This document shows, piece after piece, positions 5,652-41,392 of a stretch of 64,000 nucleotides of DNA. The notes beneath the pieces are model-generated. The model searched no databases. It was not told the DNA's origin and saw nothing but the letters and a program-made list of their open reading frames with translations. Source of the DNA: an archaeon (lineage in GTDB: Archaea; Methanobacteriota_B; Thermococci; Methanofastidiosales; NM3); contig RXIG01000008.1 of the NCBI GenBank assembly GCA_004212155.1, positions 31,827-95,826 on the forward strand. Direction: 5' to 3'. A program made the translations under genes and the position numbers. The stretch's first letter is position 1. The number at the start of each line of letters is the position of its first letter.

Positions 5652-8600
5652 TTAGGAGATTGTGATTGTACAATCATCGTCGCAGTATATCCAGTATCCA
5701 TGCCATGGATTGAACTCATCAAATCCGCTTGCAAATCGCCCACGCGGGTCGTAGAGCTGTGCCTGGTTCGTTGGCGATCCAGCGACCTCGTCGGGGAGGT
5801 ACGTCCACATGAGGTTGACCGTTCCTGGCACTGAAGCATCCAATGCCGTTGCGATGTCGTTGTTTGCTGTCAGCAGGTTGTAGCCTATCAGGCTCCACTG
5901 GCCACCGGTGATGTCAATAGAGCGAGAGGTAGTACTCTCTTCTCCTACCACTGTAAGCTCTGCAAGCCCATTTAGTCGTATCCAGTAGCCGCGGTCATGT
6001 TCCGGATATTTCACGGTCGATGACTTTACGCTAGATGTGTCAGGGTAGTCGTAGTATTCGTAGTATTCGTCAGTGCCATTGTACTGAGCGATCTTGTCCC
6101 ATGTCGAGTAATCTATGCCACTCGCATAGAGCAGTGCGGGCCATGGCACGTCCTCTGGCACGAGCACGGGGAACGACATCATGTACCAGCCAGCCTCAGG
6201 GAACGTTAGGTCGGATGATGTGCCAGGTTCGAGTACTAGAGACACAGTATCTGAGTCGCCCACTTCTACCACGAACTCAGACGCATCCATTATCATGTCA
6301 GCGTCGTTATCCGAGGCACATGCAACATACGTTTCACCATCGCCATCCGTTGGGAGATTGGTAAACGTAGCAATACCTGAACCATTGGTTGCGGCCTCGC
6401 CAAAGTATTCGTATACTTGTGTTGATTCATTGAAGTGCCATATCGTCACTAGTGCCCCCACATATGAGCTCGCTGAATCATCAGTGACAGTGACCTCGAG
6501 ATCGCCAAATCCTGCAACGCTCATGTCAAGACTGATGTCCTGAGTTATGGTGTCTCCTGGATTAACAACCACGCCATTCACTACTTCTGTAACGAATCCT
6601 AACTTGCTGAATTCGAGATCGTAGGTAGCGTCCGGCAAGTCGTTGACGCTGTATGTACCATCACCAAGTGTGGAAGCGTAGTACTCGTCCGTTGTAGATG
6701 TATTTGTTGCTTTTACTGTTACACCCTGTATGGGGGTCGTACCGTCCATCTGCGTAACTGTACCATTTATGATACCAAGCGTAGAGGATGATTCATTGAT
6801 GGTAGCAGTTATGTAGTAACTATCCCAATCATCGTAATCGAGCGTTACCCATTTGGTGGTTACATCGTAGCCCGTCTTGGAGAACTTGACGAACCAGGTA
6901 CCAAGGGGTACGCCCGTTTCATTGTCGTCGTTATCTCCGTCGTAGTTAAGGTCAGCATGCTCCCATCCAGATGTGTCCCAGTTGCCGCTACTATCAGTCT
7001 GTGTAGTGAACCGTGGCGTAGAGAAGTCATCTGGAGAGAACCATTCTACGTCCGCACCTTGAACTGGATTGGAGCCGTCATCTACACTACCTGTGACATT
7101 TACGAAGTAGCGTGACATCGGTATGTCCTGTTCGATGATGTCGCCCTCAGAGATGACGATCGGGTCCTCAATCTGCCAGTCTTGGTACTCTGGTAGTTCA
7201 GTGCCATCCACGATCTGAACACACTGGAGCGTGTACGTTCCAACAGGCAGGCTTGGCACCGAGTAGAACCCGGTATCATCGGTGAATGCCTCGAACGTGC
7301 CTACGCCATTCTTAACAGCGATGATCTTGGCGTTGATGACCTTGTCGCCCGCATCCTTGACACCATTTCCATTCACGTCCTCGAAGACGTATCCGCTTAT
7401 GGTGTTCGTGAGCTTGTTGAGCGAGTAGTTCATGGTGTTGAGGCCAAGCTCGACGGTCGTGTATTCCTCGTGAGACTCGTACCCGGCAGCGTTTACCTCT
7501 ACGAGGTAGGTCTCATCAGCAGTGAGGCCCTCGAGTATGTAGAATCCGAAGCTATCGGTGTCTTCGGAAACACTGTCAGCGGTCACACTGGCATTGACGA
7601 TACCCTCCGTCTTGGGCACGGAGGCATCGACATCATAGTCATTCTCGCCATCTGCATCGAAATATACTTCCCCATAAAGATATGCAGAAGTATAAGATGT
7701 CGTCTTGTAGAGTGGGAAGTCGATCCACTGGCCACTGCCCTCCACCATGGGTAGATTCCTCTGTATGCCTGGCTCGTATATTCCTTCATCTGCGAGATCG
7801 CCCGCCACGATGGTCATCTTCGTCGTCGAGCTGTTTATCTGTGAAGACACTTCGTTGATAATATAGTATCCAGTTGAATCGGTCTCGGCCTTGAGCCCCG
7901 CGGATGCCACATCGTTGTTGACACCTGAGCCGGGGATATAGACCGGCATGTCAGGGATGCGCTCGTTCTCATCGACGACGCCGTTGTTGTTCATGTCCCA
8001 GAAGGCGATACCCTCTATCCATGAGTCATACGGTGTCGATGGTGTCGATGGAAGCTCGATCATGACCTGTGTGTTTGTCGCTTGGTCCCGTGCCACCGTC
8101 ATGGTGTACTGCTGCGGCGTGGTACCAGTGATCTCTTCCTTTGCGGTCACATGGTAGGTCCTGCCGCCATCGTTTGGCACATCCATGAAGACGAAGTTGT
8201 AATCATCTCCATTTATGTCGTTGTTGGTGGAGCTAGAGCTATAAACTGTGCGACCAAGTCCGGGGATTGATACCTCGACATTTTCAACTTCCTCGCCTGG
8301 CTGATAAGCTGGGTCACTATTATTGTTTCGCCAAACGATACCGTAAAGGTTGTTGTCAGGCATCGTTGTCTCGTCCCAGAGCGCGAAGTGTTCGGTGACT
8401 ATCGCCCTGCCTGGGACGACCACATCGTAGCGCTCCTTGGTCACATAATCGGTGGTATTCGGCTCCATGGGTGCCTGGAGCGTGTAGGTGCCACGGTTGG
8501 CCACGAGTACGTACCATCCGTTGCTGTCGGTAACACCCGTTTCCTCATTGGATGGGATATCGTCGTCCATGGCTAGCACTTCTATTCCCTCGATGCCATC

Positions 8601-11600
8601 GTTTGTGGACGAGTCACGGACGTAGCCCATGATAAGCCCTTCCTCCTTCTCGATGAGGAAGTCGACACCGGATGTGGTGCCTCCGTGCACGATATCCACA
8701 TCATACACAGCTGCAAGAGAGTAGTCCTGCTTCGTGCATGTCACGGTGTATCCAATGTATGGCAGATTGGAGTAGAGGCCGTTGATGTAGTAGGCCCCGT
8801 TGATGTCGGTCGTGACCTGTCGGCCAGCGATGCTCACGGTGGCATTGCGCACGGGCACATCGATCGTGTCATCGTAGACACCGTTGTGATTGACGTCCTC
8901 GTAGACGTGGCCCTTGAGCGCGCCATCCTTCTCGAGCGTGTAGTCGATGTTGTCGGTCTCGTGGCCAGCCGTCACGGGGACGTTGTACTGTATCTGCGAG
9001 ACGTAAAACGGCTTGCTCGCCTGGATGGCGTAGTTTGCTGGGACGACATCAAGCAGGATCCAGAATCCCTCGATGTCGGACCATGTGGCATTGTCGCTGT
9101 TTTGTATCCAGACCTCGGTCTCGGCGTTGATGTCGTTGAGCGAGAGCTCGACATCGCCCGATACCGAGCCTGTCACCGGCAGCGGATCGGCCTTGTCCAT
9201 CGGGTATCCGATATCGGTTGTGACATCGTCGAAGTATACCTCTTCATATACTAGTATATTATTACAGAGGAGGTATGGCTCCGGGTCGGGCGTATGATTC
9301 TTGTAGAGGTCCGGGTCCGGCGCGGGTGGTGACGTGGATTCATACTTCTCGACATCGTAACCGTTGAGCTCTGCTATGCCCGTGTACCTGTTGATCTCTC
9401 GACCAAGGTCGAGCGTGAAGTCCTTCGTTATTGGTACATCGAGTATGGTGTAGTAGCCGGTCGTGTCGGACGTAGCGGCAAACATGCGCGATAACGACAC
9501 GTTGGCGTCGGGCAGGGGGATATCCGTTGGCGGATCGTACGTTAGATTATCATCCTTGTCCTCCCAGACGTACCCCTCGACGCGTCCTGTCTCACGTGTC
9601 GGTGATACGTTCTTGGTCACGGTCGACGATATGGTCACGTAGTTGAACTCGTATTCGTACCATGGGTTTCCATAATCGTCACCATCATACTTTTGCATGA
9701 TGAGTAGATGACGCCCTTTGGGTATGGAGTTATCCTCTAGACCCATTTGATCGGCAAAGGCATAGTTCCCGTAAAAATCACTGTACGTATACCTTAGGGC
9801 ATCGAGAGGACGCCATGAATTTTCATATCCGGGTGTCCAAAGTATGGACTCATCAACTGGGTCGCCGTCCTCGGTCACCCTGCCAACAAGTTCGCCCGTC
9901 AGGCGCTGCATTTCAACGTTATTGTCAGGATTCTCCTCATCAGCGATTACGCCCATCATTGCGGGTGCGACCCACCAGTCGTAATCATCCTTGTAGGCCA
10001 CCATGTTGTGGTCGCCTGCATCGGCCTTTACGAAGTAGAAGCCGAAATCATCTGAGGTCACTGACGGATATCCAGGTATCTCGACGGTAACGCCAGAGAG
10101 TCCCTCTCCTTCTTCGAACGCGTCTGTACCGTTGGTGTCCTCGTATGCGACGCCTGAAACGTAGCCGTAATTGGATACCGTCTCATCAGGGAGTGCGTAG
10201 CTGCCCTGGAAGTTGCATACTGACTGAGCGCCGCTCGAGACGGTAATGCCCGTCCTGACGACCACATCGTGTGTCGTTTCCTCGTAGTCGCCCGCACCGC
10301 CATCATCCGCCACGACGGTGTATGAGCCTACAGGCACCTGCACGAACTCGTAGATGCCGCTGTCATCGGTGATGGCCTCACGGCCGTATGCACGGACGCG
10401 TGCGCCCTCGATCGCGGTGTTGCTTCCGCGGTCGTAGACAACGCCCTTGATGATACCCGTCCTTCGAACGATCGTTATGTCATATGAGTTGTCAAACGAT
10501 TCGTTTGCTGGCAGCGGCGTGACCGTGAGCGTGTTGGTGTAGTAGTCCGGTTCGTTCGTCTTGACGATCACATCGTCAACGTAGTAGCATATCGACGAGG
10601 ATTCGTAGTCGTACACTGAGTAACGCTCGATGTTGATACCCTCAAGCACATACCAGCCATTGACGTCGGTCAGGGAGGAAATGGTGGTATTTGGTATCGA
10701 CACTGAAACGTTTTCTACAGGCAGACCATCCTTGTCAAGGATCTGTCCAACGATGAAGCCTGGGTTCTCCTCGAGCTGGAAGTTGGTCTCCGCGTTGAGA
10801 TTGGGTATCACCTCGACGCGCTCCTTGGCCGTCTTGTGGTCGAGAAGGCCCTCATATTCGCTTTCCTCAAGCTCGCAGTCGATCGGTGGGCACGGGTCGG
10901 TCACGACGACATCATACTCGCCGTTTGGCACTTCCTCGAAGAAGTAGTACCCTGCCCTGTCGGTCGCCGTTGCAAGACCGAGGCCCGGCACCTCGACCGT
11001 TGCGGCCTCGATCGGGTTGCCGTTCACGTCGGTGACGATGCCCGATATGTAGCCGTTGGTCGGTGTGAGCGGTTCTGGTGAGAGGTTGAAGTCGGCTGGA
11101 ACGGGTGTAACGGGTGGACCGGGCTGCACGAACGGACTTAGGGGTCCGCCGTTGAGCCCGAACGCTCCGGAGTCGTCGTAGTAGAGCACATCGGTCTTGT
11201 ACCCGTCCTTCTCACAGATCATCGTGTAGCTGCCAGGTGTGACGCCTGTTATCTTATAATACCCATCTGAATCGGTGATCGCTGAGAGGCCAAGGCCCTT
11301 GATCGACACCTCTGCGCCCTCGATGGGCGCGGAGCCGTTCGAGACATGGCCTTCGATCGAACCGAAGTTCTTGCTTATGGCGAAGTTGATGCCTTCTGTT
11401 GTCTGTCCCCGGTAGACACGTACGGCAGTCTTGACCTGCGAGACATACTGGTCCTTGGAGGTCCTGATGTCATACGTGTCGGTGGGAAGGCCCTTGAACA
11501 CGAAGTTTCCGAACTGGTCGGTGCGCACGACGGCATCATCGCCGAGCACATCGGTCGCGAGCGCATGGGTCACGTGGTCGAGCGCCTCGACCTTGACGCC

Positions 11601-12047
11601 TGCGACAGGCGAGCCGGACGTATCGACGACCCGTCCGTAGATCGAGTCCTTGAGATGCATCTCGACCGTCCCTCCAGCAAGGGCGAGCGTACCGCCGGAG
11701 TTGTCGACGTTGTACGACACGGTCTGGAACCCGTCGGCCTTGAACGTGAGGTAGTGAAGCCCATCCCAGTCCAGGCCGGCAGGAGACCCGGAGAAGACGT
11801 CCGTAAACGATCCGTCCCCCGCCGTGGTCGCACCGGCCGATCCGGCATTATCAAGATAGACGCCGATGCCCTCGAGACCCTCTCCGGAATCGAACTCATC
11901 GTTGCCATTGAAGTCGAACCAAACCGCGTCCGCATCCCCTGTGATAGCGTTTGCGGCCTTGGCCGGTTCGGCATTAATATATACTAAACTTAGAAGTATT
12001 ATGGCTCCTATGAAAAGAGACACGCCCTTTTTCATCTTTTCTTTCAT
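5652..12047 (-). CDS. Giant secreted repeat protein (CarboxypepD_reg / SdrD-B-like repeats), 2131 aa
   Basis: Signal peptide, then about 19 repeats such as GHVYEDVNHNGVYDDTIDVPVRNATVSIAGRQVTTDINGAYYINGL; C-terminal WY...RGYWIRL...GYWIYCDDDCTITIS module. Confidence 0.9.
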   Translation of the reverse strand: MKEKMKKGVSLFIGAIILLSLVYINAEPAKAANAITGDADAVWFDFNGNDEFDSGEGLEGIGVYLDNAGSAGATTAGDGSFTDVFSGSPAGLDWDGLHYLTFKADGFQTVSYNVDNSGGTLALAGGTVEMHLKDSIYGRVVDTSGSPVAGVKVEALDHVTHALATDVLGDDAVVRTDQFGNFVFKGLPTDTYDIRTSKDQYVSQVKTAVRVYRGQTTEGINFAISKNFGSIEGHVSNGSAPIEGAEVSIKGLGLSAITDSDGYYKITGVTPGSYTMICEKDGYKTDVLYYDDSGAFGLNGGPLSPFVQPGPPVTPVPADFNLSPEPLTPTNGYISGIVTDVNGNPIEAATVEVPGLGLATATDRAGYYFFEEVPNGEYDVVVTDPCPPIDCELEESEYEGLLDHKTAKERVEVIPNLNAETNFQLEENPGFIVGQILDKDGLPVENVSVSIPNTTISSLTDVNGWYVLEGINIERYSVYDYESSSICYYVDDVIVKTNEPDYYTNTLTVTPLPANESFDNSYDITIVRRTGIIKGVVYDRGSNTAIEGARVRAYGREAITDDSGIYEFVQVPVGSYTVVADDGGAGDYEETTHDVVVRTGITVSSGAQSVCNFQGSYALPDETVSNYGYVSGVAYEDTNGTDAFEEGEGLSGVTVEIPGYPSVTSDDFGFYFVKADAGDHNMVAYKDDYDWWVAPAMMGVIADEENPDNNVEMQRLTGELVGRVTEDGDPVDESILWTPGYENSWRPLDALRYTYSDFYGNYAFADQMGLEDNSIPKGRHLLIMQKYDGDDYGNPWYEYEFNYVTISSTVTKNVSPTRETGRVEGYVWEDKDDNLTYDPPTDIPLPDANVSLSRMFAATSDTTGYYTILDVPITKDFTLDLGREINRYTGIAELNGYDVEKYESTSPPAPDPDLYKNHTPDPEPYLLCNNILVYEEVYFDDVTTDIGYPMDKADPLPVTGSVSGDVELSLNDINAETEVWIQNSDNATWSDIEGFWILLDVVPANYAIQASKPFYVSQIQYNVPVTAGHETDNIDYTLEKDGALKGHVYEDVNHNGVYDDTIDVPVRNATVSIAGRQVTTDINGAYYINGLYSNLPYIGYTVTCTKQDYSLAAVYDVDIVHGGTTSGVDFLIEKEEGLIMGYVRDSSTNDGIEGIEVLAMDDDIPSNEETGVTDSNGWYVLVANRGTYTLQAPMEPNTTDYVTKERYDVVVPGRAIVTEHFALWDETTMPDNNLYGIVWRNNNSDPAYQPGEEVENVEVSIPGLGRTVYSSSSTNNDINGDDYNFVFMDVPNDGGRTYHVTAKEEITGTTPQQYTMTVARDQATNTQVMIELPSTPSTPYDSWIEGIAFWDMNNNGVVDENERIPDMPVYIPGSGVNNDVASAGLKAETDSTGYYIINEVSSQINSSTTKMTIVAGDLADEGIYEPGIQRNLPMVEGSGQWIDFPLYKTTSYTSAYLYGEVYFDADGENDYDVDASVPKTEGIVNASVTADSVSEDTDSFGFYILEGLTADETYLVEVNAAGYESHEEYTTVELGLNTMNYSLNKLTNTISGYVFEDVNGNGVKDAGDKVINAKIIAVKNGVGTFEAFTDDTGFYSVPSLPVGTYTLQCVQIVDGTELPEYQDWQIEDPIVISEGDIIEQDIPMSRYFVNVTGSVDDGSNPVQGADVEWFSPDDFSTPRFTTQTDSSGNWDTSGWEHADLNYDGDNDDNETGVPLGTWFVKFSKTGYDVTTKWVTLDYDDWDSYYITATINESSSTLGIINGTVTQMDGTTPIQGVTVKATNTSTTDEYYASTLGDGTYSVNDLPDATYDLEFSKLGFVTEVVNGVVVNPGDTITQDISLDMSVAGFGDLEVTVTDDSASSYVGALVTIWHFNESTQVYEYFGEAATNGSGIATFTNLPTDGDGETYVACASDNDADMIMDASEFVVEVGDSDTVSLVLEPGTSSDLTFPEAGWYMMSFPVLVPEDVPWPALLYASGIDYSTWDKIAQYNGTDEYYEYYDYPDTSSVKSSTVKYPEHDRGYWIRLNGLAELTVVGEESTTSRSIDITGGQWSLIGYNLLTANNDIATALDASVPGTVNLMWTYLPDEVAGSPTNQAQLYDPRGRFASGFDEFNPWHGYWIYCDDDCTITIS

Positions 12048-12280: not shown

Positions 12281-13387
12281 TCATTCCTTGCGTTCCACGA
12301 GATAGTGGACGAAGAGCTTGAGCATATCCTTCGCTTCACACTCGGGAAGCACCTTCCTTGCCTCCTCCCATGACGATATGACGAGCGCATCGGCGATCTC
12401 CTTGGCGCTCTCGATCGCACCATGTCGCTCGATGATGCCGATCGCCGCGTCAAGCCTTTCCCTCTCGCGGGTGTGCTGCGAGAGCGTGTCAAGGAGCGTC
12501 TGCGCCTCCTCGGGCGGGGCGCGCTGGAGCGTCTTGATCACGAGCAGCGTGATCTTTCCCTCGGTGATGTCGTTGCCATACGGCTTTCCGAACCGTTCAC
12601 GGTCCTCGCCCTTCGTGACGATATCGAGAATGTCGTCCTGGATCTGGAACGCGACGCCGACCGACTCGGCGAACCGTCCAAGCACGTTCACCGTTTCGTC
12701 ATCGGCCCCCGAGAGTACGGCGGCAAGCTTGGCCGACATGCGCGCAAGCGTGCCGGTCTTGTAGGCGCACATCTGTATGTACTGCTCCTCGGATATGGCG
12801 TCCGCGCTTCGCTCGCCCCGGTGCCAAGAGATGTCAAGCGCCTGTCCCAGGTGCACGTTGATCATCTCGGTGGAGTAGATGTTGTAGGCGCGAACGAGCA
12901 CGTCGTCGGAAAATCCTGCCTTGTTGTTCACGAAGAGGGCAAGCGGGATGAAGTAGAGCGCGTTGCCGGCGTTGATCGCCGTGTCGACGCCAAAGAGGGT
13001 GTGCAGGCTCTCCTTTCCGCGGCGCATCTCGGAGCCGTCCTCGATGTCGTCGATGATGATGGTGCCGTTGTGCACGAGCTCGACGAGCGCGGCATAGTCG
13101 CGCGTCCGGTCCCTGTCGCCGCCAAGGGCGTCAACGATAAGCGTGAAGAGGATGGGGCGCCAGCGCTTGCCGCCGCGGGAGAGGAAGTCCCAGACGGGGC
13201 GGGAGATGCCCATCGTGAGCGATTCGGTATCGTAGCCGTATGCAGGCTTTCCCGAAAGCATGTTGACATAGTCCTCCGTCATCGCACGGGGAAGGGCCTT
13301 TTCGAGTATGAGCTCTATGATCTCCTTTCTAGATTCCAAGAATGACTCAAGGTCGTGGCGTGGCACTGGTCTCACCACTACCCCCAT
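12281..13387 (-). CDS. Trans-polyprenyl diphosphate synthase (GGPP/FPP synthase type)
   Basis: Both Asp-rich motifs: VHNGTIIIDDIEDGSEMRRG and FQIQDDILDIV; GGKRWRP. Confidence 0.92.
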   Translation of the reverse strand: MGVVVRPVPRHDLESFLESRKEIIELILEKALPRAMTEDYVNMLSGKPAYGYDTESLTMGISRPVWDFLSRGGKRWRPILFTLIVDALGGDRDRTRDYAALVELVHNGTIIIDDIEDGSEMRRGKESLHTLFGVDTAINAGNALYFIPLALFVNNKAGFSDDVLVRAYNIYSTEMINVHLGQALDISWHRGERSADAISEEQYIQMCAYKTGTLARMSAKLAAVLSGADDETVNVLGRFAESVGVAFQIQDDILDIVTKGEDRERFGKPYGNDITEGKITLLVIKTLQRAPPEEAQTLLDTLSQHTRERERLDAAIGIIERHGAIESAKEIADALVISSWEEARKVLPECEAKDMLKLFVHYLVERKE

Positions 13388-32931: not shown

Positions 32932-34119
32932 CTACTCCTTGAGCAAGCGGGCGAACTCGCGGCCGAACTCCTCGCACGATGCGAGCTCCTCGCTTGTCGG
33001 CACCCATTTGAGCTCGAGGGGTTCGCGAACGACGTCGATGCCGCTGTCCTGGAGCATCTCCTCGATGGCGGCGCACGCGCCGCCGCCCCAGCCGTAGGAG
33101 CCGAATGCGGCACCTTTCTTCTTCTTGGGACGGAGTCCCTTCATGTAGGTAAGGAACCCTCCAACGAGCGGGTACATGCCGTTGTTGAGCGTTGGCGACC
33201 CGACAAGCACGCCCTTGCTCTCGAGCATCTCGGTGATGACATAGCTCTTTTCCGTGTCGCGCAGGCGCATCAGCCTGACCGCCACGCCCTCGGACTGTAT
33301 GCCCTCGGCAATCGCTTTGGCCATCTTCTCGGTCGAATTCCACATCGTGTCGTATGCGATGACGACGCGGTCGGTGGCGGCGCCGGATGCCCATTTGGCA
33401 TACCATGTAACGATCTGTGTCGGGTCGTCGCGCCATATGACGCCGTGGTCGGGCGCGATGACGTCGATCTCGATGCCCATCGACTGCACGCGCTCGATAA
33501 GGCGCGATATGAGCGGGCTGTAGAGCCAGAGGATGTTTGCGTAATAATCCCCTGCGACGTGATAGAGGGTCGAGGGATCGACCTCGTCGTTGAATCGCTC
33601 GGACGACGCAATGTGCTGGCCGAACGCATCAGAGGAGAACACCACGTGGTCCTCAACAAGATACGACATCATCGAGTCGGGCCAGTGGAGCATCGGCGTC
33701 TTGATGAACTGCAGCGTCTTTGATCCGAGCGAGATCGAATCGCCGTCATCGACCACCGTGATGTCGTTGGTGGTGCCAAAGTGCTTCTGCAGTTCCTCGC
33801 GGCCCTCCTCGGTCGCGAGTATCGTTGCGTTTGGAAGCATGCCGGCAACGACGGGAAACGACCCTGAATGGTCCATCTCCACATGATTGACCACGAGGTA
33901 ATCGATCTTGTCCAGGTCGACGATCTCCTTCACGCGAGCAAGGAACTCGTCCTTGAACGGGCGCTTGACCGTGTCGATGAGGGCGATCTTCTCGTCGATG
34001 ACGAGATATGCATTGTACGTCGTCCCATAGGGCGTCTTATACCCATGGAAGTCGCGGATGTTCCAGTCGATGGCGCCGACCCAGTATATACCTTTCTTGA
34101 TCTCGACAGTGTTCATCAT
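32932..34119 (-). CDS. fprA: FprA-family flavodiiron protein
   Basis: YNAYLVIDEKIALIDTVK; NHVEMDHSGSFPVV; MLHWPDSMMSYL; flavodoxin VIAYDTMWNSTEKMAKAI; FGSYGWGGGA. Confidence 0.95.
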   Translation of the reverse strand: MMNTVEIKKGIYWVGAIDWNIRDFHGYKTPYGTTYNAYLVIDEKIALIDTVKRPFKDEFLARVKEIVDLDKIDYLVVNHVEMDHSGSFPVVAGMLPNATILATEEGREELQKHFGTTNDITVVDDGDSISLGSKTLQFIKTPMLHWPDSMMSYLVEDHVVFSSDAFGQHIASSERFNDEVDPSTLYHVAGDYYANILWLYSPLISRLIERVQSMGIEIDVIAPDHGVIWRDDPTQIVTWYAKWASGAATDRVVIAYDTMWNSTEKMAKAIAEGIQSEGVAVRLMRLRDTEKSYVITEMLESKGVLVGSPTLNNGMYPLVGGFLTYMKGLRPKKKKGAAFGSYGWGGGACAAIEEMLQDSGIDVVREPLELKWVPTSEELASCEEFGREFARLLKE

Positions 34120-35015: not shown

Positions 35016-35690
35016 ATGACTGAAACATCAGGAAATGAGAATCCGGGCATGCCCCTCATAGGAGACAAGCTTCCCGAGATGACGGTGAACACCACCTTCG
35101 GAAAGATCGAGCTCCCCAAGGATTATGCCGGAAAATGGTTAGTGCTCTTTAGCCACCCGGGCGACTTCACGCCCGTATGCACCACAGAGTTCATCGGGTT
35201 CGCAAAAAGGCATGACGTGTTCAGGTCGATGAACTGCGAGCTCCTCGGCCTGTCTATCGACCAGGTCTTCTCCCACATCAAGTGGGTGAAGTGGATCGAG
35301 GAGAACATGGGCGTCAAGATAACGTTCCCTGTCATCGCCGACGACCGCGGCAAGGTCGCAGAGACGCTCGGCATGCTCCACCCCAACAAGGGCAACAACA
35401 CGGTACGCGCCGTCTTCGTCATAGACGCGGACGGAATCATACGACTCATACTGTACTATCCGCAGGAGATCGGCCGAAAGATCGATGAGGTCATACGCGT
35501 TGTCAAGGCGCTCCAACACGCCGACAAGAACAAGGTCGCCCTGCCCGCGGACTGGCCAGATAACGAGATCATCGGAGACAAGGAGATCGTGCCCCCGGCA
35601 AGCACCGTCAAGGCCGCTGACAAGCGCATGCTCGACAAGGACCTCGAGTGCAAGGACTGGTGGTTCTGCTACCGAAAGCCAAAGAAGTAG
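35016..35690 (+). CDS. Peroxiredoxin (Prx6/1-Cys-like group)
   Basis: [23 protein letters not shown]...[23 protein letters not shown]...[17 protein letters not shown]. Confidence 0.95.
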
Positions 35691-36619: not shown

Positions 36620-38050
36620 ATGGATCATAAAAAGGATGATTTCAAATTACGGAGGGAGTCTTTGTGGAACTCGCTCTCCGATACGGACAAGAAGGAAATG
36701 GAAACGCTCGTGACCCACTACAAGCGTTACCTGGACGAAGCAAAGACCGAACGCGAGGCGGTACGGACCACGGAAGCGATGGCACGCGAACGCGGATTCA
36801 TCCCGCTCGATGAGCTCGAGAAGAAATATCAGGGTTCTGACACCTCGCCCGCAGGAGAGCGATTCTACGTAAAGAACAAGGAAAAAAACATCCTCCTCGG
36901 CATCATGGGGACGACGCCCCTGTCGCAGGGATTCTCGCTCATCGCATCGCACGTCGACTCGCCCAGGCTCGACCTCAAGCCCAATCCCCTCATCGAGAAG
37001 GAGAAGTTCACGCTTCTCAAGACTCACTACTATGGCGGCATGAAGAAGTACCAGTTCGCATCGATACCCCTCGCGCTGCACGGCGTGGTCTACATGCAGG
37101 ACGGAAAGCGCCTTCGGTTCACTATCGGCGAGGACGAGGACGACCCGGTCTTTACCGTCAACGACATCCTGATCCATCTCGCCAAGCAGGTGCAGTACGA
37201 GCGCAAGACCCCCGACGTCATCAAGGGCGAGGAGCTAAACATCCTCTTCTCGAGCATTCCCTACCCTGGTGACGACACGAAGGAGGCGGTCAAACGCTAC
37301 GCCCTCGCGCTGCTCAACGAGCGCTACGGGCTCGCCGAGGAGGATTTCGTCTCGGCGGAGATCGAGGCAGTGCCGGCCGGAAGGGCACGCGACGTTGGCA
37401 TCGACCGCAGCATGATAGGGGCCTATGGCCAGGACGACCGCATCTGCGCGTTCACCTCGGTCCAGGCGCTCTTCGAGCTCGAACACGCGCCCGCACAGAC
37501 GGCCCTCGTGCTCCTGGCCGACAAGGAGGAGATAGGCAGCGAGGGAAGCACGTCGATGCAAAGCTCGTTCTTCTCGTGGATCGTTGCGCGCCTGCTTGCA
37601 CTCTCTGGCGAGTACCGCGACCTTTCGATGCTCAACGCGTTCATGAACGCGCGAGCCCTCTCGGCCGACGTGGCCGGAGGAATCAACCCGAACTTCCCTG
37701 ACGTCCATGAGCACAACAACGCCCCGCGCCTCGGATACGGCATCGCGCTCACGAAGTACACGGGTAAGAGCGGCAAGTACAACGCCAACGACGCCAACGC
37801 CGAATACGTGTCCCACATCCGCTCGATCTTCAACGCCGCCGGCGTCCGCTGGCAGGCTGCCGAGCTTGGCAAGGTCGATGAGGGGGGCGGCGGAACGGTG
37901 GCCAAGTTCCTCTCGAAGCTTGGCATCGAGACGATCGACTCGGGACCGCCCGTGCTCTCGATGCACTCGTCGTTTGAGGTCTCATCAAAGGTTGACCTGC
38001 TGACGGCAAAGCGGGCATACAGGGCCTTCCTCGATTGGAAAAAAACGTAA
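36620..38050 (+). CDS. M18-family aminopeptidase
   Basis: SLIASHVDSPRLDLKPNPL; LLADKEEIGSEGSTSMQSSFF; GGGGTVAKFL; PVLSMHSSFEVSSKVDL. Confidence 0.92.
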   Translation: MDHKKDDFKLRRESLWNSLSDTDKKEMETLVTHYKRYLDEAKTEREAVRTTEAMARERGFIPLDELEKKYQGSDTSPAGERFYVKNKEKNILLGIMGTTPLSQGFSLIASHVDSPRLDLKPNPLIEKEKFTLLKTHYYGGMKKYQFASIPLALHGVVYMQDGKRLRFTIGEDEDDPVFTVNDILIHLAKQVQYERKTPDVIKGEELNILFSSIPYPGDDTKEAVKRYALALLNERYGLAEEDFVSAEIEAVPAGRARDVGIDRSMIGAYGQDDRICAFTSVQALFELEHAPAQTALVLLADKEEIGSEGSTSMQSSFFSWIVARLLALSGEYRDLSMLNAFMNARALSADVAGGINPNFPDVHEHNNAPRLGYGIALTKYTGKSGKYNANDANAEYVSHIRSIFNAAGVRWQAAELGKVDEGGGGTVAKFLSKLGIETIDSGPPVLSMHSSFEVSSKVDLLTAKRAYRAFLDWKKT

Positions 38051-38073: not shown

Positions 38074-38868
38074 CTACACGGGACGAAGCGTTCCGAAGAA
38101 GACCTGCCATGCAAGCGCCGTCTTTGCAACGAGGCTGAGCACGATATACATCTTCTCGCCGAAGTAGTAGCTCTTCCATGGGCCCTTCTCCATGTACTGG
38201 AGCGCCATGTTGGCAGCGAAGCTCATGAAGAATACAAAGATCGTAAAGAAGATGTAGTATACGAACGTCGGGACACCGCCACCGTCGCCGCCCGCGCCCG
38301 AAAGGTGCATGGCGATGACGATCCATGGCGCCGCGCCGGCGATGCAACCGAAGATGTAGAGCGACCAGTTTGTCTTTTTTGTATGCTGATTCAATAGCTC
38401 CATGCCCAGTCCGAACAGATTCATGCACGCATTCGCGATGAATATGGGAATGAGCGCCGCGATGTCGTAGACGCCTGTGAGCATCGCTATGATAACGATC
38501 ATCACCGACGAGCTGATGGCATACTCGTACCAACGCAGATAGTTGATATGGCGCTTGAGATTGCGCTTGTACCATCCGTATCCCCACGGCGACGCGAGCG
38601 TGAAGTGCGCAACGGCGGAGATGAAGAGAAACAGTGCGATCCCGGGGCCGAGACGGACCAGGGCCACCTCGTTTGCCACCGTCTCAAGTGACTGGGTCGC
38701 AGAGCTGTAGTTCAGATAGAACGTCTTGATCGGCAAGGCAAAGTCGTTACTAATGGCATAGAGCACGATCGACTGTACCAGGTGCAGCGCGCCCATGAAC
38801 GCGTTGAACTTCCTGAGCCCCGAGAACACGGATTCAGGTACATCCTCATTAGTAGAATTGCTCATCAT
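38074..38868 (-). CDS. Heliorhodopsin
   Basis: 264 aa, seven hydrophobic segments; GALHLVQ (H29), AVAHF (H88), INYLRWYEYAISSSVMIVIIAML (E115 in TM3), MNLFGLGMEL, GCIAGAAPWIVIA, GGGVPTFVYYIF, FAANMALQY, GPWKSYYFGEKMYIVLSLVAKTALAWQVFFGTLRP (candidate retinal K249 in TM7, codon 38122-38124). Confidence 0.93.
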   Translation of the reverse strand: MMSNSTNEDVPESVFSGLRKFNAFMGALHLVQSIVLYAISNDFALPIKTFYLNYSSATQSLETVANEVALVRLGPGIALFLFISAVAHFTLASPWGYGWYKRNLKRHINYLRWYEYAISSSVMIVIIAMLTGVYDIAALIPIFIANACMNLFGLGMELLNQHTKKTNWSLYIFGCIAGAAPWIVIAMHLSGAGGDGGGVPTFVYYIFFTIFVFFMSFAANMALQYMEKGPWKSYYFGEKMYIVLSLVAKTALAWQVFFGTLRPV

Positions 38869-38971
38869 AAAGAATAGGCTCTGAGACTATATTAATCTTG
38901 TCTTTGAGCTTCCAATGAGGATATAATAAAAGAAAAGGAAAAAAAAGAGAGAAAACAAGGCGCTATTTCAT

Positions 38972-41392
38972 TTACGTGAATTCCTTGAGGTTTCGCGCCA
39001 TGTTCTGGACCTTTTGTTCCACAAGGCGGTGGATGGTGCCCTCCTCGAACGTCCCGTCCTCTCGCCGTTTGCCTGCCTTCCTGTCCGTGAGCACCTCGAG
39101 CCCCTCGTCGATCGTGCCCACCGCGTAGATGTGGAACGAGCCGTCTCGCACGGCCTCGATGACCTCCTCTTTTAACATGAGGTTTTGCACATTGGATGCA
39201 GGTATCATGACGCCCTGTTCGCCGGTCAGGCCCTTGACCTTGCAAAACGAGAAGAATCCCTCGATCTTTTCGTTGACGCCGCCGATCGGTTGCACCTCGC
39301 CGTACTGGTTGACAGAGCCTGTGATGGCGATGTTTTGCTTTAATGGGACGCCCGAGAGCACCGAGAGCAACGTGTAGAGTTCCGTGCTCGATGCGCTGTC
39401 GCCGTCGATCCCGCCGTAGCTTTGCTCGAAGACGAGCCGTGCCGAGATGCCAAGCGGATTGTTCTGGGCATAGTTTTGCATGAGGTAGCCGCCGATGATG
39501 AGCACGCCCTTGGTATGCGATGAGCCGCCAAGCTCTGCCTCGCGCTCGATATCGACGACGCCGCCCTTGCCCACGCCCACGGTTGCAGTGACGCGTGAAG
39601 GGCGCCCGAACGCATAGTCGCCGACGCTCATGACCGAGAGGCCGTTTGCCTGCCCCACCTTCGTTCCCTCGGTTTCAAGGATGATCTGTCCTCGCTCGAA
39701 CATCTCGCGGATCTTCTCCTCTATGAGGTTCGAACGGTATATCTTCTCGTTGATGGCCTTCTCGATATTGTCGGCGCTGATCTTGTTGGCATTGTCCCGG
39801 ATGGAATAATAGTTCGCCTCGCGGATGATGTCGGCGATCTCCGCGAACTGCGTCGAGAGCTTGTCCTGGAGGCTTGCCAGGCGGGAGCTGTACTCGACGA
39901 GGCGGGAAAGCGCTTCTGACTCCATGTGATTGAGCCCTTCCTTGTCGCAGAACGTACAGACGAACCGGGCGTAATCGATGAGATTTTCATCTGTGCGGTC
40001 CATGCTGCTGTCGAAGTCGGCCTTGATCTTGAAGAGCTCCTTGAAGTCGGGGTCGAGGTTGTAGAGCATCTGGTAGAGGTACGGTGTGCCGATGAGCACG
40101 ACCTTGATTGACAGAGGGATGGGTTGTGGTTTGATGCCGCGGACCGAGATATAGCCGAATCGTTCCGCCGGCTCCTCAATGATGGCCTTTTGCTGCTTGA
40201 TCGCCATCTTGAGGCTTTCCCACGAGAGCGGGTTTTTCAGTATGTCCTCGATGGCAACGACGAGATAGCCGCCGTTTGCCTTGTGGAAGTCCCCGGGCTT
40301 GATGAGGGTGAAGTCGGTGGTGAGCATGCCGAACTGCGCCTCTTTCTCGATCTTTCCGAAGAGGTTCTGGTAGGTCGGATTGTACTCGACGATGACGGGT
40401 GCGCCATCGGTCTGCGAGTTGTCGACGACGACGTTGACCTCGTACTTCCTGAAGATACGTTCGCCCTGTTGCATCGCCTGTTGTATGGACGGAGGGGGTT
40501 GCTGCCCCCCCTGACCGCCGATTTGCTGTTCCGGCCCCTTCGAGGCCACGATGAATGCAAAGATGTTTTCAACGATATGGGTTTGCACCGCATTGATGTA
40601 GTCGAGGATCTCCTCATGGTCGCCAAACGTCTGCTTGATATCCTCAACGAGGTGACCAATGGTGAATAGCGCCACCTCCTTGTTGAGCTCCTTGAGCTTC
40701 TCGTTGACCTGCTTGTCGATGCCACGAAGCTTGTGCATCGCGTTGCGCAGGTCCTCGGATACATTCTCGCGCTTCTTCTGGATCTCCTTTCGCATATCCT
40801 CGTCGAGCGAGAGGAACTCCTGCTCGCTCATGGGCGTTCCGTCGTCCTTGAGCGGGATCACCATGAGCCCCGACGTCGCGCTCTGTATGGTAAAGCCTTC
40901 AGACTGCGCCTTCTTGTTGATCTCCTCGAAGAGGCGATTGCGTTCCTTGGTCGCCTCCTTGACGACCTGATCACGGCGCGAAGAGTACTCCTCTCCCTCG
41001 AACGCCTCAGGCAGGACGCGCTTTGCCTCATCGACAAATGAGACCATCTCCTCCCTGAACTTCTTTCCCATGCCGGGCGGCAGTTCGATGGCACGTGGCT
41101 CGTACTCGTTATCGAAGTTGGCGACATAGCACCAGTCCGATGGCACCTCCTTGTCGCTTGAAGCCACCTCGAGAAAGTCCTTCACTGCTGTCATTCGGCC
41201 GGTGCCGGGATATCCCGATACGTATATGTTGAACCCGCTGTCCACCATGCCTATGCCAAACTTTAGGACATGGACCGCCCTATCCTGACCAATGATCTCC
41301 TTCGAAGGCGATAGGTCTGACGTAGAATCGCACTCGAACTTGGCGGGGTCTACCCGCTTCCTTAACTGATCGGGGCCTAATTCCTGATACAT
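38972..41392 (-). CDS. Lon-like AAA+ protease (COG1067 / LonC-YcbZ-like)
   Basis: Walker A variant GYPGTGRMT; S16 protease catalytic region GGIDGDSASSTELYTLLSVLSGVPLKQNIAITGSVNQYGEVQPIGGVNEKIEGFF (Ser/Lys dyad). Confidence 0.92.
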   Translation of the reverse strand: MYQELGPDQLRKRVDPAKFECDSTSDLSPSKEIIGQDRAVHVLKFGIGMVDSGFNIYVSGYPGTGRMTAVKDFLEVASSDKEVPSDWCYVANFDNEYEPRAIELPPGMGKKFREEMVSFVDEAKRVLPEAFEGEEYSSRRDQVVKEATKERNRLFEEINKKAQSEGFTIQSATSGLMVIPLKDDGTPMSEQEFLSLDEDMRKEIQKKRENVSEDLRNAMHKLRGIDKQVNEKLKELNKEVALFTIGHLVEDIKQTFGDHEEILDYINAVQTHIVENIFAFIVASKGPEQQIGGQGGQQPPPSIQQAMQQGERIFRKYEVNVVVDNSQTDGAPVIVEYNPTYQNLFGKIEKEAQFGMLTTDFTLIKPGDFHKANGGYLVVAIEDILKNPLSWESLKMAIKQQKAIIEEPAERFGYISVRGIKPQPIPLSIKVVLIGTPYLYQMLYNLDPDFKELFKIKADFDSSMDRTDENLIDYARFVCTFCDKEGLNHMESEALSRLVEYSSRLASLQDKLSTQFAEIADIIREANYYSIRDNANKISADNIEKAINEKIYRSNLIEEKIREMFERGQIILETEGTKVGQANGLSVMSVGDYAFGRPSRVTATVGVGKGGVVDIEREAELGGSSHTKGVLIIGGYLMQNYAQNNPLGISARLVFEQSYGGIDGDSASSTELYTLLSVLSGVPLKQNIAITGSVNQYGEVQPIGGVNEKIEGFFSFCKVKGLTGEQGVMIPASNVQNLMLKEEVIEAVRDGSFHIYAVGTIDEGLEVLTDRKAGKRREDGTFEEGTIHRLVEQKVQNMARNLKEFT

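Follow-up and report, generated by a model that had tools for sequence, protein, structure and literature searches.

A heliorhodopsin with an apparently intact retinal site in an Mcr-encoding archaeon that has no detectable retinal pathway

The locus described here raises the question of what a light-sensing rhodopsin would do in an archaeon thought to be anaerobic, and from where such a protein would obtain its retinal. The window, by which we mean the whole stretch of 64,000 nucleotides analysed, carries an open reading frame that an earlier note, made from the letters alone, had read as an archaeal heliorhodopsin with an apparently intact retinal-binding site and an unexplained retinal source. 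The gene and the codons of its key residues are the following.

38074..38868, minus strand: heliorhodopsin gene, 264 amino acids, identified by PF18761, NF038020, alignment with TaHeR and a model compared with 6is6
38122..38124, minus strand: AAG codon of K249, the retinal Schiff-base lysine (K241 of 48C12), by alignment
38524..38526, minus strand: GAG codon of E115, the Schiff-base counterion (E107 of 48C12), by alignment
38605..38607, minus strand: CAC codon of H88 (H80 of 48C12), by alignment
38782..38784, minus strand: CAC codon of H29 (H23 of 48C12), by alignment

The reading frame runs from 38868 to 38074, with ATG as start and TAG as stop. Its product matched Pfam family PF18761 (E 7.3e-96, 320.6 bits, cut-off 26.7) and the NCBIfam family NF038020, 'heliorhodopsin HeR' (E 2.1e-96, 322.2 bits, cut-off 100), in both cases far above the curated cut-off. 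A sequence search of the PDB returned six significant matches, all of them heliorhodopsins, with TaHeR at the top (E 1.9e-75). Among characterised proteins the best alignment was thus to a heliorhodopsin and not to a non-rhodopsin family, with 53.6% identity to TaHeR and 44.9% to 48C12; the closest named homologues come from a 'Methanomicrobia archaeon' (98% identity) and a 'Candidatus Methanofastidiosia archaeon' (77%). PF18761 was the sole family matched, and the type-1 rhodopsin family PF01036 matched neither this protein nor anything in the host genome. With the fold search described below, these results agree with the proposed family assignment: judged by its sequence, the protein is a genuine heliorhodopsin (type-3 rhodopsin). 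It is an ordinary member of the family, and its interest lies in the host and in the retinal question.

The earlier proposals for the lysine and its codon, the counterion and the two cavity histidines were all borne out by alignment with 48C12. At the positions of a possible ESL-type motif in TM3, E115 (E108 of TaHeR in the literature numbering) is followed by S119 and then by I126, where TaHeR likewise has isoleucine and not leucine. In TM7, the SxxxK motif S245-K249 aligns to S237-K241 of 48C12. Lysine, counterion glutamate, both histidines and SxxxK match 48C12 and TaHeR, and K249, E115, H29 and H88 are invariant in an alignment of nine copies, that of the window plus eight from relatives. 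The site thus appears intact; the protein is probably functional, and retinal binding is predicted. Methionines (M156 and M221) occupy the two main positions that tune colour, where 48C12 has Q148 and Q213, so that a bluer maximum is expected, and A248 precedes K249; by the natural-variant rule of PMC7807009 the absorption maximum should lie below ~550 nm.

An AlphaFold2 model made with the window protein and eight relatives as input (mean pLDDT 83.9, pTM 0.80) contains seven long helices, in agreement with the seven hydrophobic segments noticed earlier, and a beta-hairpin in the AB loop (strands at residues 44-55 and 60-72). When the PDB was searched with the model, the ten top matches were all heliorhodopsins, and type-1 rhodopsins ranked after them with E > 1e-3. 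The model superposed best on TaHeR (6is6; TM 0.89, rmsd 1.7 A) and also on 48C12 (TM 0.85-0.87), so that the structural check likewise predicts a heliorhodopsin fold with the AB hairpin. We counted nine K/R residues in the BC, DE and FG loops versus two in the AB, CD, EF and C-terminal segments (limits set by hand), which agrees with the inverted topology in which the N terminus is inside. The residue I126 also bears on whether the protein could be a light-driven ion pump or channel that serves energy supply. The third motif position is occupied as in TaHeR, and there is no carboxylate donor. Cellular heliorhodopsins such as OcHeR showed no pumping (PMC11109279), although one viral heliorhodopsin is described as transporting protons (PMC9448325). 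We regard a pump or channel as highly improbable.

The host genome (G000) comprises 1.49 Mb in 28 contigs and is 90% complete; the heliorhodopsin gene lies on contig C9. Host and relatives, 60 genomes with the host's own included, were searched family by family with profiles. The host encodes McrA (methyl-coenzyme M reductase). No haem-copper oxidase was found in its genome, which suggests little oxygen use, and nothing there scored above the cut-off for reverse gyrase, which makes hyperthermophily unlikely. The host is an uncultured, probably strictly anaerobic, Mcr-encoding relative of Methanofastidiosales, presumably with a single membrane; other members of its class resemble Thermococcaceae, as far as is apparent. 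A mix-up in the genome bin was considered and rejected, since the gene is embedded in a contig of 95.8 kb and both its neighbours are the same in a genome of the same genus (G001); its GC content (0.546, window 0.558) also contradicts such a mix-up. Heliorhodopsin genes were present in nine of the 60 genomes (own included) and in all three genera seen of the host's family. In the tree, the copies of this family form one clade (100/99) that branches in taxonomic order, as expected for vertical inheritance. The gene was not found in another genome of the same genus (G002, 96% complete), which implies a loss. In the literature searched we found no placement of a heliorhodopsin in Methanofastidiosia.

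The gene had been placed between an M18 aminopeptidase and a Lon-like protease, and profiles identified both neighbours. These neighbours and other features of the window are listed below.

36620..38050, plus strand: M18 aminopeptidase (NCBIfam, 642 bits), convergent with the heliorhodopsin gene and 23 bp from it
38972..41392, minus strand: Lon-like protease (AAA_32, LonB LID, Lon_C), 103 bp upstream of the heliorhodopsin gene on the same strand
38888..38895, minus strand: TATA-like element TTAATATA, starting 27 bases before the ATG, putative function
38929..38955 (approximate), minus strand: T-rich tract in the gap between the Lon-like and heliorhodopsin genes, possibly an archaeal terminator of the Lon transcript
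32932..34119, minus strand: flavodiiron protein (oxygen/NO reductase family), 4 kb from the heliorhodopsin gene
35016..35690, plus strand: peroxiredoxin (PRK13189, 356 bits), 2.4 kb from the heliorhodopsin gene
12281-13387: polyprenyl synthetase gene

The TATA-like element is also present in G001, there too downstream of a T-rich tract. Its conservation after such a tract suggests that the heliorhodopsin gene probably has its own promoter and transcript, with a near-leaderless start. The flavodiiron protein and peroxiredoxin, both within 6 kb, provide a context that is suggestive only. Among the selected neighbours that were scanned, no two-component genes were recognised beside the heliorhodopsin gene. 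The Lon-like protease (38972-41392, minus strand) also has a LonC helical domain and scored 151 bits against the archaeal LonB equivalog, whose cut-off is 517. Elsewhere in the window, 5652-12047 on the minus strand encodes a 2131-residue protein rich in CarboxypepD_reg-like domains, which is probably a large protein of the cell surface.

Where could the retinal come from? The earlier note had seen no Blh/Brp, CrtB, CrtI or CrtY gene in the window, and profile searches for the retinal-pathway families found none there either; in the host genome, matches were confined to contigs C10 and C17. On C17, genes for CrtID, CrtB, a UbiA prenyltransferase and a methyltransferase share one strand, and next to them is a divergently oriented gene of the CruF family (L020:8397-13074). 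CrtID scored as a bifunctional phytoene/3,4-desaturase (679 bits, cut-off 640). The UbiA protein, encoded adjacent to crtB, belongs to the PRK12875 group (336 bits, cut-off 205) and may act as a lycopene elongase; the CruF-family protein scored 115 bits against the CruF equivalog, below the cut-off of 155. From these assignments, the cluster is likely a set for red C50 carotenoids of the bacterioruberin type. The proposed search of the rest of the genome thus yielded a carotenoid cluster but no detectable lycopene cyclase, Blh/Brp or cleavage oxygenase, which sharpens the question of retinal supply raised by the earlier note. None of the 60 genomes had a match that reached the cut-off for Lycopene_cyc (PF18916), BCD/Blh or RPE65-type oxygenases, and the lycopene cyclase family PF05834 was found in neither G000 nor G001. 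PF05834 matches in relatives from the order were mostly short pieces (residues ~1-40 or 1-145) that scored close to the cut-off or under it, and we discounted them because nucleotide-binding segments of flavoproteins are expected to give such matches. A weak BCD (Blh/Brp) match on C10 (G000:C10:64413-64754; 18.4 bits, cut-off 28) was rejected, as it lies on the strand opposite to two genes resembling cobamide-type methyltransferases.

The gene content suggests that the host probably makes lycopene-level intermediates and a C50 carotenoid, but makes retinal by no known route. Retinal would then be scavenged or come from an undescribed route; with a genome 90% complete, a retinal gene could also sit in the missing tenth. 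Synthesis within the cell from lycopene or the C50 carotenoid, by an undescribed and possibly oxygen-independent route, would fit a host that has CrtI and CrtB but neither a cyclase nor a cleavage enzyme of a known kind. It also has a precedent in the actinobacterium Aurantimicrobium minutum, a producer of retinal that has no known gene for the purpose (PMC7734400), so internal synthesis has to be weighed. However, the crt cluster looks complete for a C50 carotenoid without retinal, and the missing haem-copper oxidase points to little oxygen use. Moreover, CrtB is absent from four of the seven heliorhodopsin genomes of the host's order (G003, G004, G006 and G009), so that this explanation seems unlikely; a strict link between heliorhodopsin and carotenoid genes was rejected for the same absences. 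In Halobacterium, bacterio-opsin is reported to restrain lycopene elongase. A protein that works in vivo as a chromophore-free opsin, for instance by restraining lycopene elongase, would suit a host with no retinal pathway in which the PRK12875 gene adjoins crtB. Such a role is quite improbable given the full conservation of the retinal lysine, counterion and pocket residues across relatives and the occurrence of heliorhodopsins in genomes lacking CrtB. Scavenging has a parallel in the host of TaHeR, which was reported to lack retinal synthesis; its heliorhodopsin was proposed to admit retinal through an opening in its side, above the ionone ring (PMC9385722).

We then considered what the protein might act upon. 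Within the host's order (21 genomes), we observed a photolyase in all seven genomes with heliorhodopsin versus 7 of the 14 without it; a one-sided Fisher test on this small sample, uncorrected for phylogeny and chosen after G004 had been seen, gave p=0.03. Only in G004 are the two genes adjacent: there, a class II photolyase gene (L031:544-1944) ends 38 bp upstream of the heliorhodopsin gene on the same strand. TfHeR of Trichococcus flocculiformis is reported to interact directly with a class II photolyase (PMC9769723), and heliorhodopsin genes of Thermoplasmatales adjoin crt and photolyase genes (PMC8612252). In G002, heliorhodopsin, photolyase, CrtB and CruF are all missing, as though a set of genes for defence against light had disappeared. 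Against the link, the two genes do not form one operon in the host, where the class II photolyase (L061:9492-10934) lies on C17, at a distance of ~17 kb from the carotenoid cluster, and the heliorhodopsin on C9; and the association fails in both heliorhodopsin-bearing class relatives taken as Thermococcaceae, in which photolyase (PF00875) is absent. On the 3' side of the C17 photolyase gene and on the same strand are a TIGR03916-like radical SAM gene and a TIGR03915-like gene, both below the curated cut-offs. Photolyase and these two genes (L061:7625-10934, on C17) might constitute a UV-repair operon, and the order is the same at L062 of G001.

Alternatively, the heliorhodopsin could sense light for a partner other than photolyase, such as the Lon-like protease, a transporter or a metabolic enzyme, and the photolyase link would then only reflect the usefulness of both genes in lit habitats. 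The Lon-like/M18 arrangement is the same in G001, but neighbours are kept only within the genus and vary among relatives (Lon/M18, adenylate kinase, CDF transporter, Rieske oxygenase, photolyase). The literature counts ten classes of neighbour, glutamine synthetase and ABC transporters among them (PMC11109279), and the gene seems to be served by a promoter of its own. Set against the adjoining photolyase in G004 and the full co-occurrence in the order, we give this alternative a modest chance. In genus g5 the heliorhodopsin gene lies between CDF cation-efflux and ATP-cone/Mrr-type nuclease-like genes (L026:8895-11654, L027:5686-8403). In two class relatives, likely Thermococcaceae, it adjoins a gene for a Rieske-type oxygenase (L028:9695-11476, L029:9160-10264), apparently truncated in L029 and an odd neighbour for anaerobes.

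On balance, we favour with moderate confidence a regulatory light sensor, not a pump, that is linked, as proposed for other heliorhodopsins, to photoprotection and UV repair and that would use scavenged retinal. In this sensor, K249 would carry all-trans retinal in a protonated Schiff base, with E115 as the partner of its charge, also in vivo. Light would isomerise the retinal, and a slow photocycle, presumably without pumping, would alter the cytoplasmic face, whose K/R-rich BC, DE and FG loops may contact a partner protein. The likeliest output would be a photoprotection and UV-repair programme, in which the class II photolyase is joined, in this species, by C50 carotenoids; the cell would most likely scavenge the chromophore from outside, probably from neighbours. 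A bolder version, which we consider doubtful, is that a methane-making anaerobe uses its heliorhodopsin as a light-defence switch for photolyase and C50 carotenoid, with retinal entering through the side opening or made by a cyclase- and oxygen-free route. Here a rhodopsin that senses light is conserved, and passed down within a family, in Mcr-encoding archaea thought to be anaerobic. If it holds retinal in these cells, the supply must bypass the known oxygen-dependent enzyme, which makes the retinal-supply question testable in a simple background. A natural comparison that bears on the role of heliorhodopsin is provided by the sister species G002, from which the genes for heliorhodopsin, photolyase and carotenoids are missing together.

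Among known systems, TaHeR of Thermoplasmatales archaeon SG8-52-1 (PDB 6is6, 7u55) shares all retinal-site residues with the window protein, and its host, too, is reported to be without a retinal-making route; it belongs to another archaeal class, whereas the window's host encodes Mcr and a C50 carotenoid set. The heliorhodopsin of Thermococcus sp. 2319x1, apparently from the same GTDB class as the host, is 47% identical to the window protein and absorbs at 530 nm with retinal (PMC7807009). The relative G050 has FDEA 44-47, M145, M205 and S232 at the numbers published for that protein, from which we infer that its heliorhodopsin corresponds to it; the window protein differs in having A248 and not serine before the lysine, and G050 has no photolyase. 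Equivalents of K241, E107, H23 and H80 of 48C12 (PDB 6su3, 6uh3) are present, but its colour positions Q148 and Q213 are methionines here. As with TfHeR, a class II photolyase gene adjoins the heliorhodopsin gene in G004, although the photolyase of the window's own genome is on another contig. Compared with the haloarchaeal bacterioruberin cluster (CrtI/D, LyeJ, CruF), the host has CrtID and the PRK12875 UbiA protein over cut-off and a CruF-family protein, the last of these short of the equivalog cut-off (115 versus 155 bits), and its product is a predicted one.
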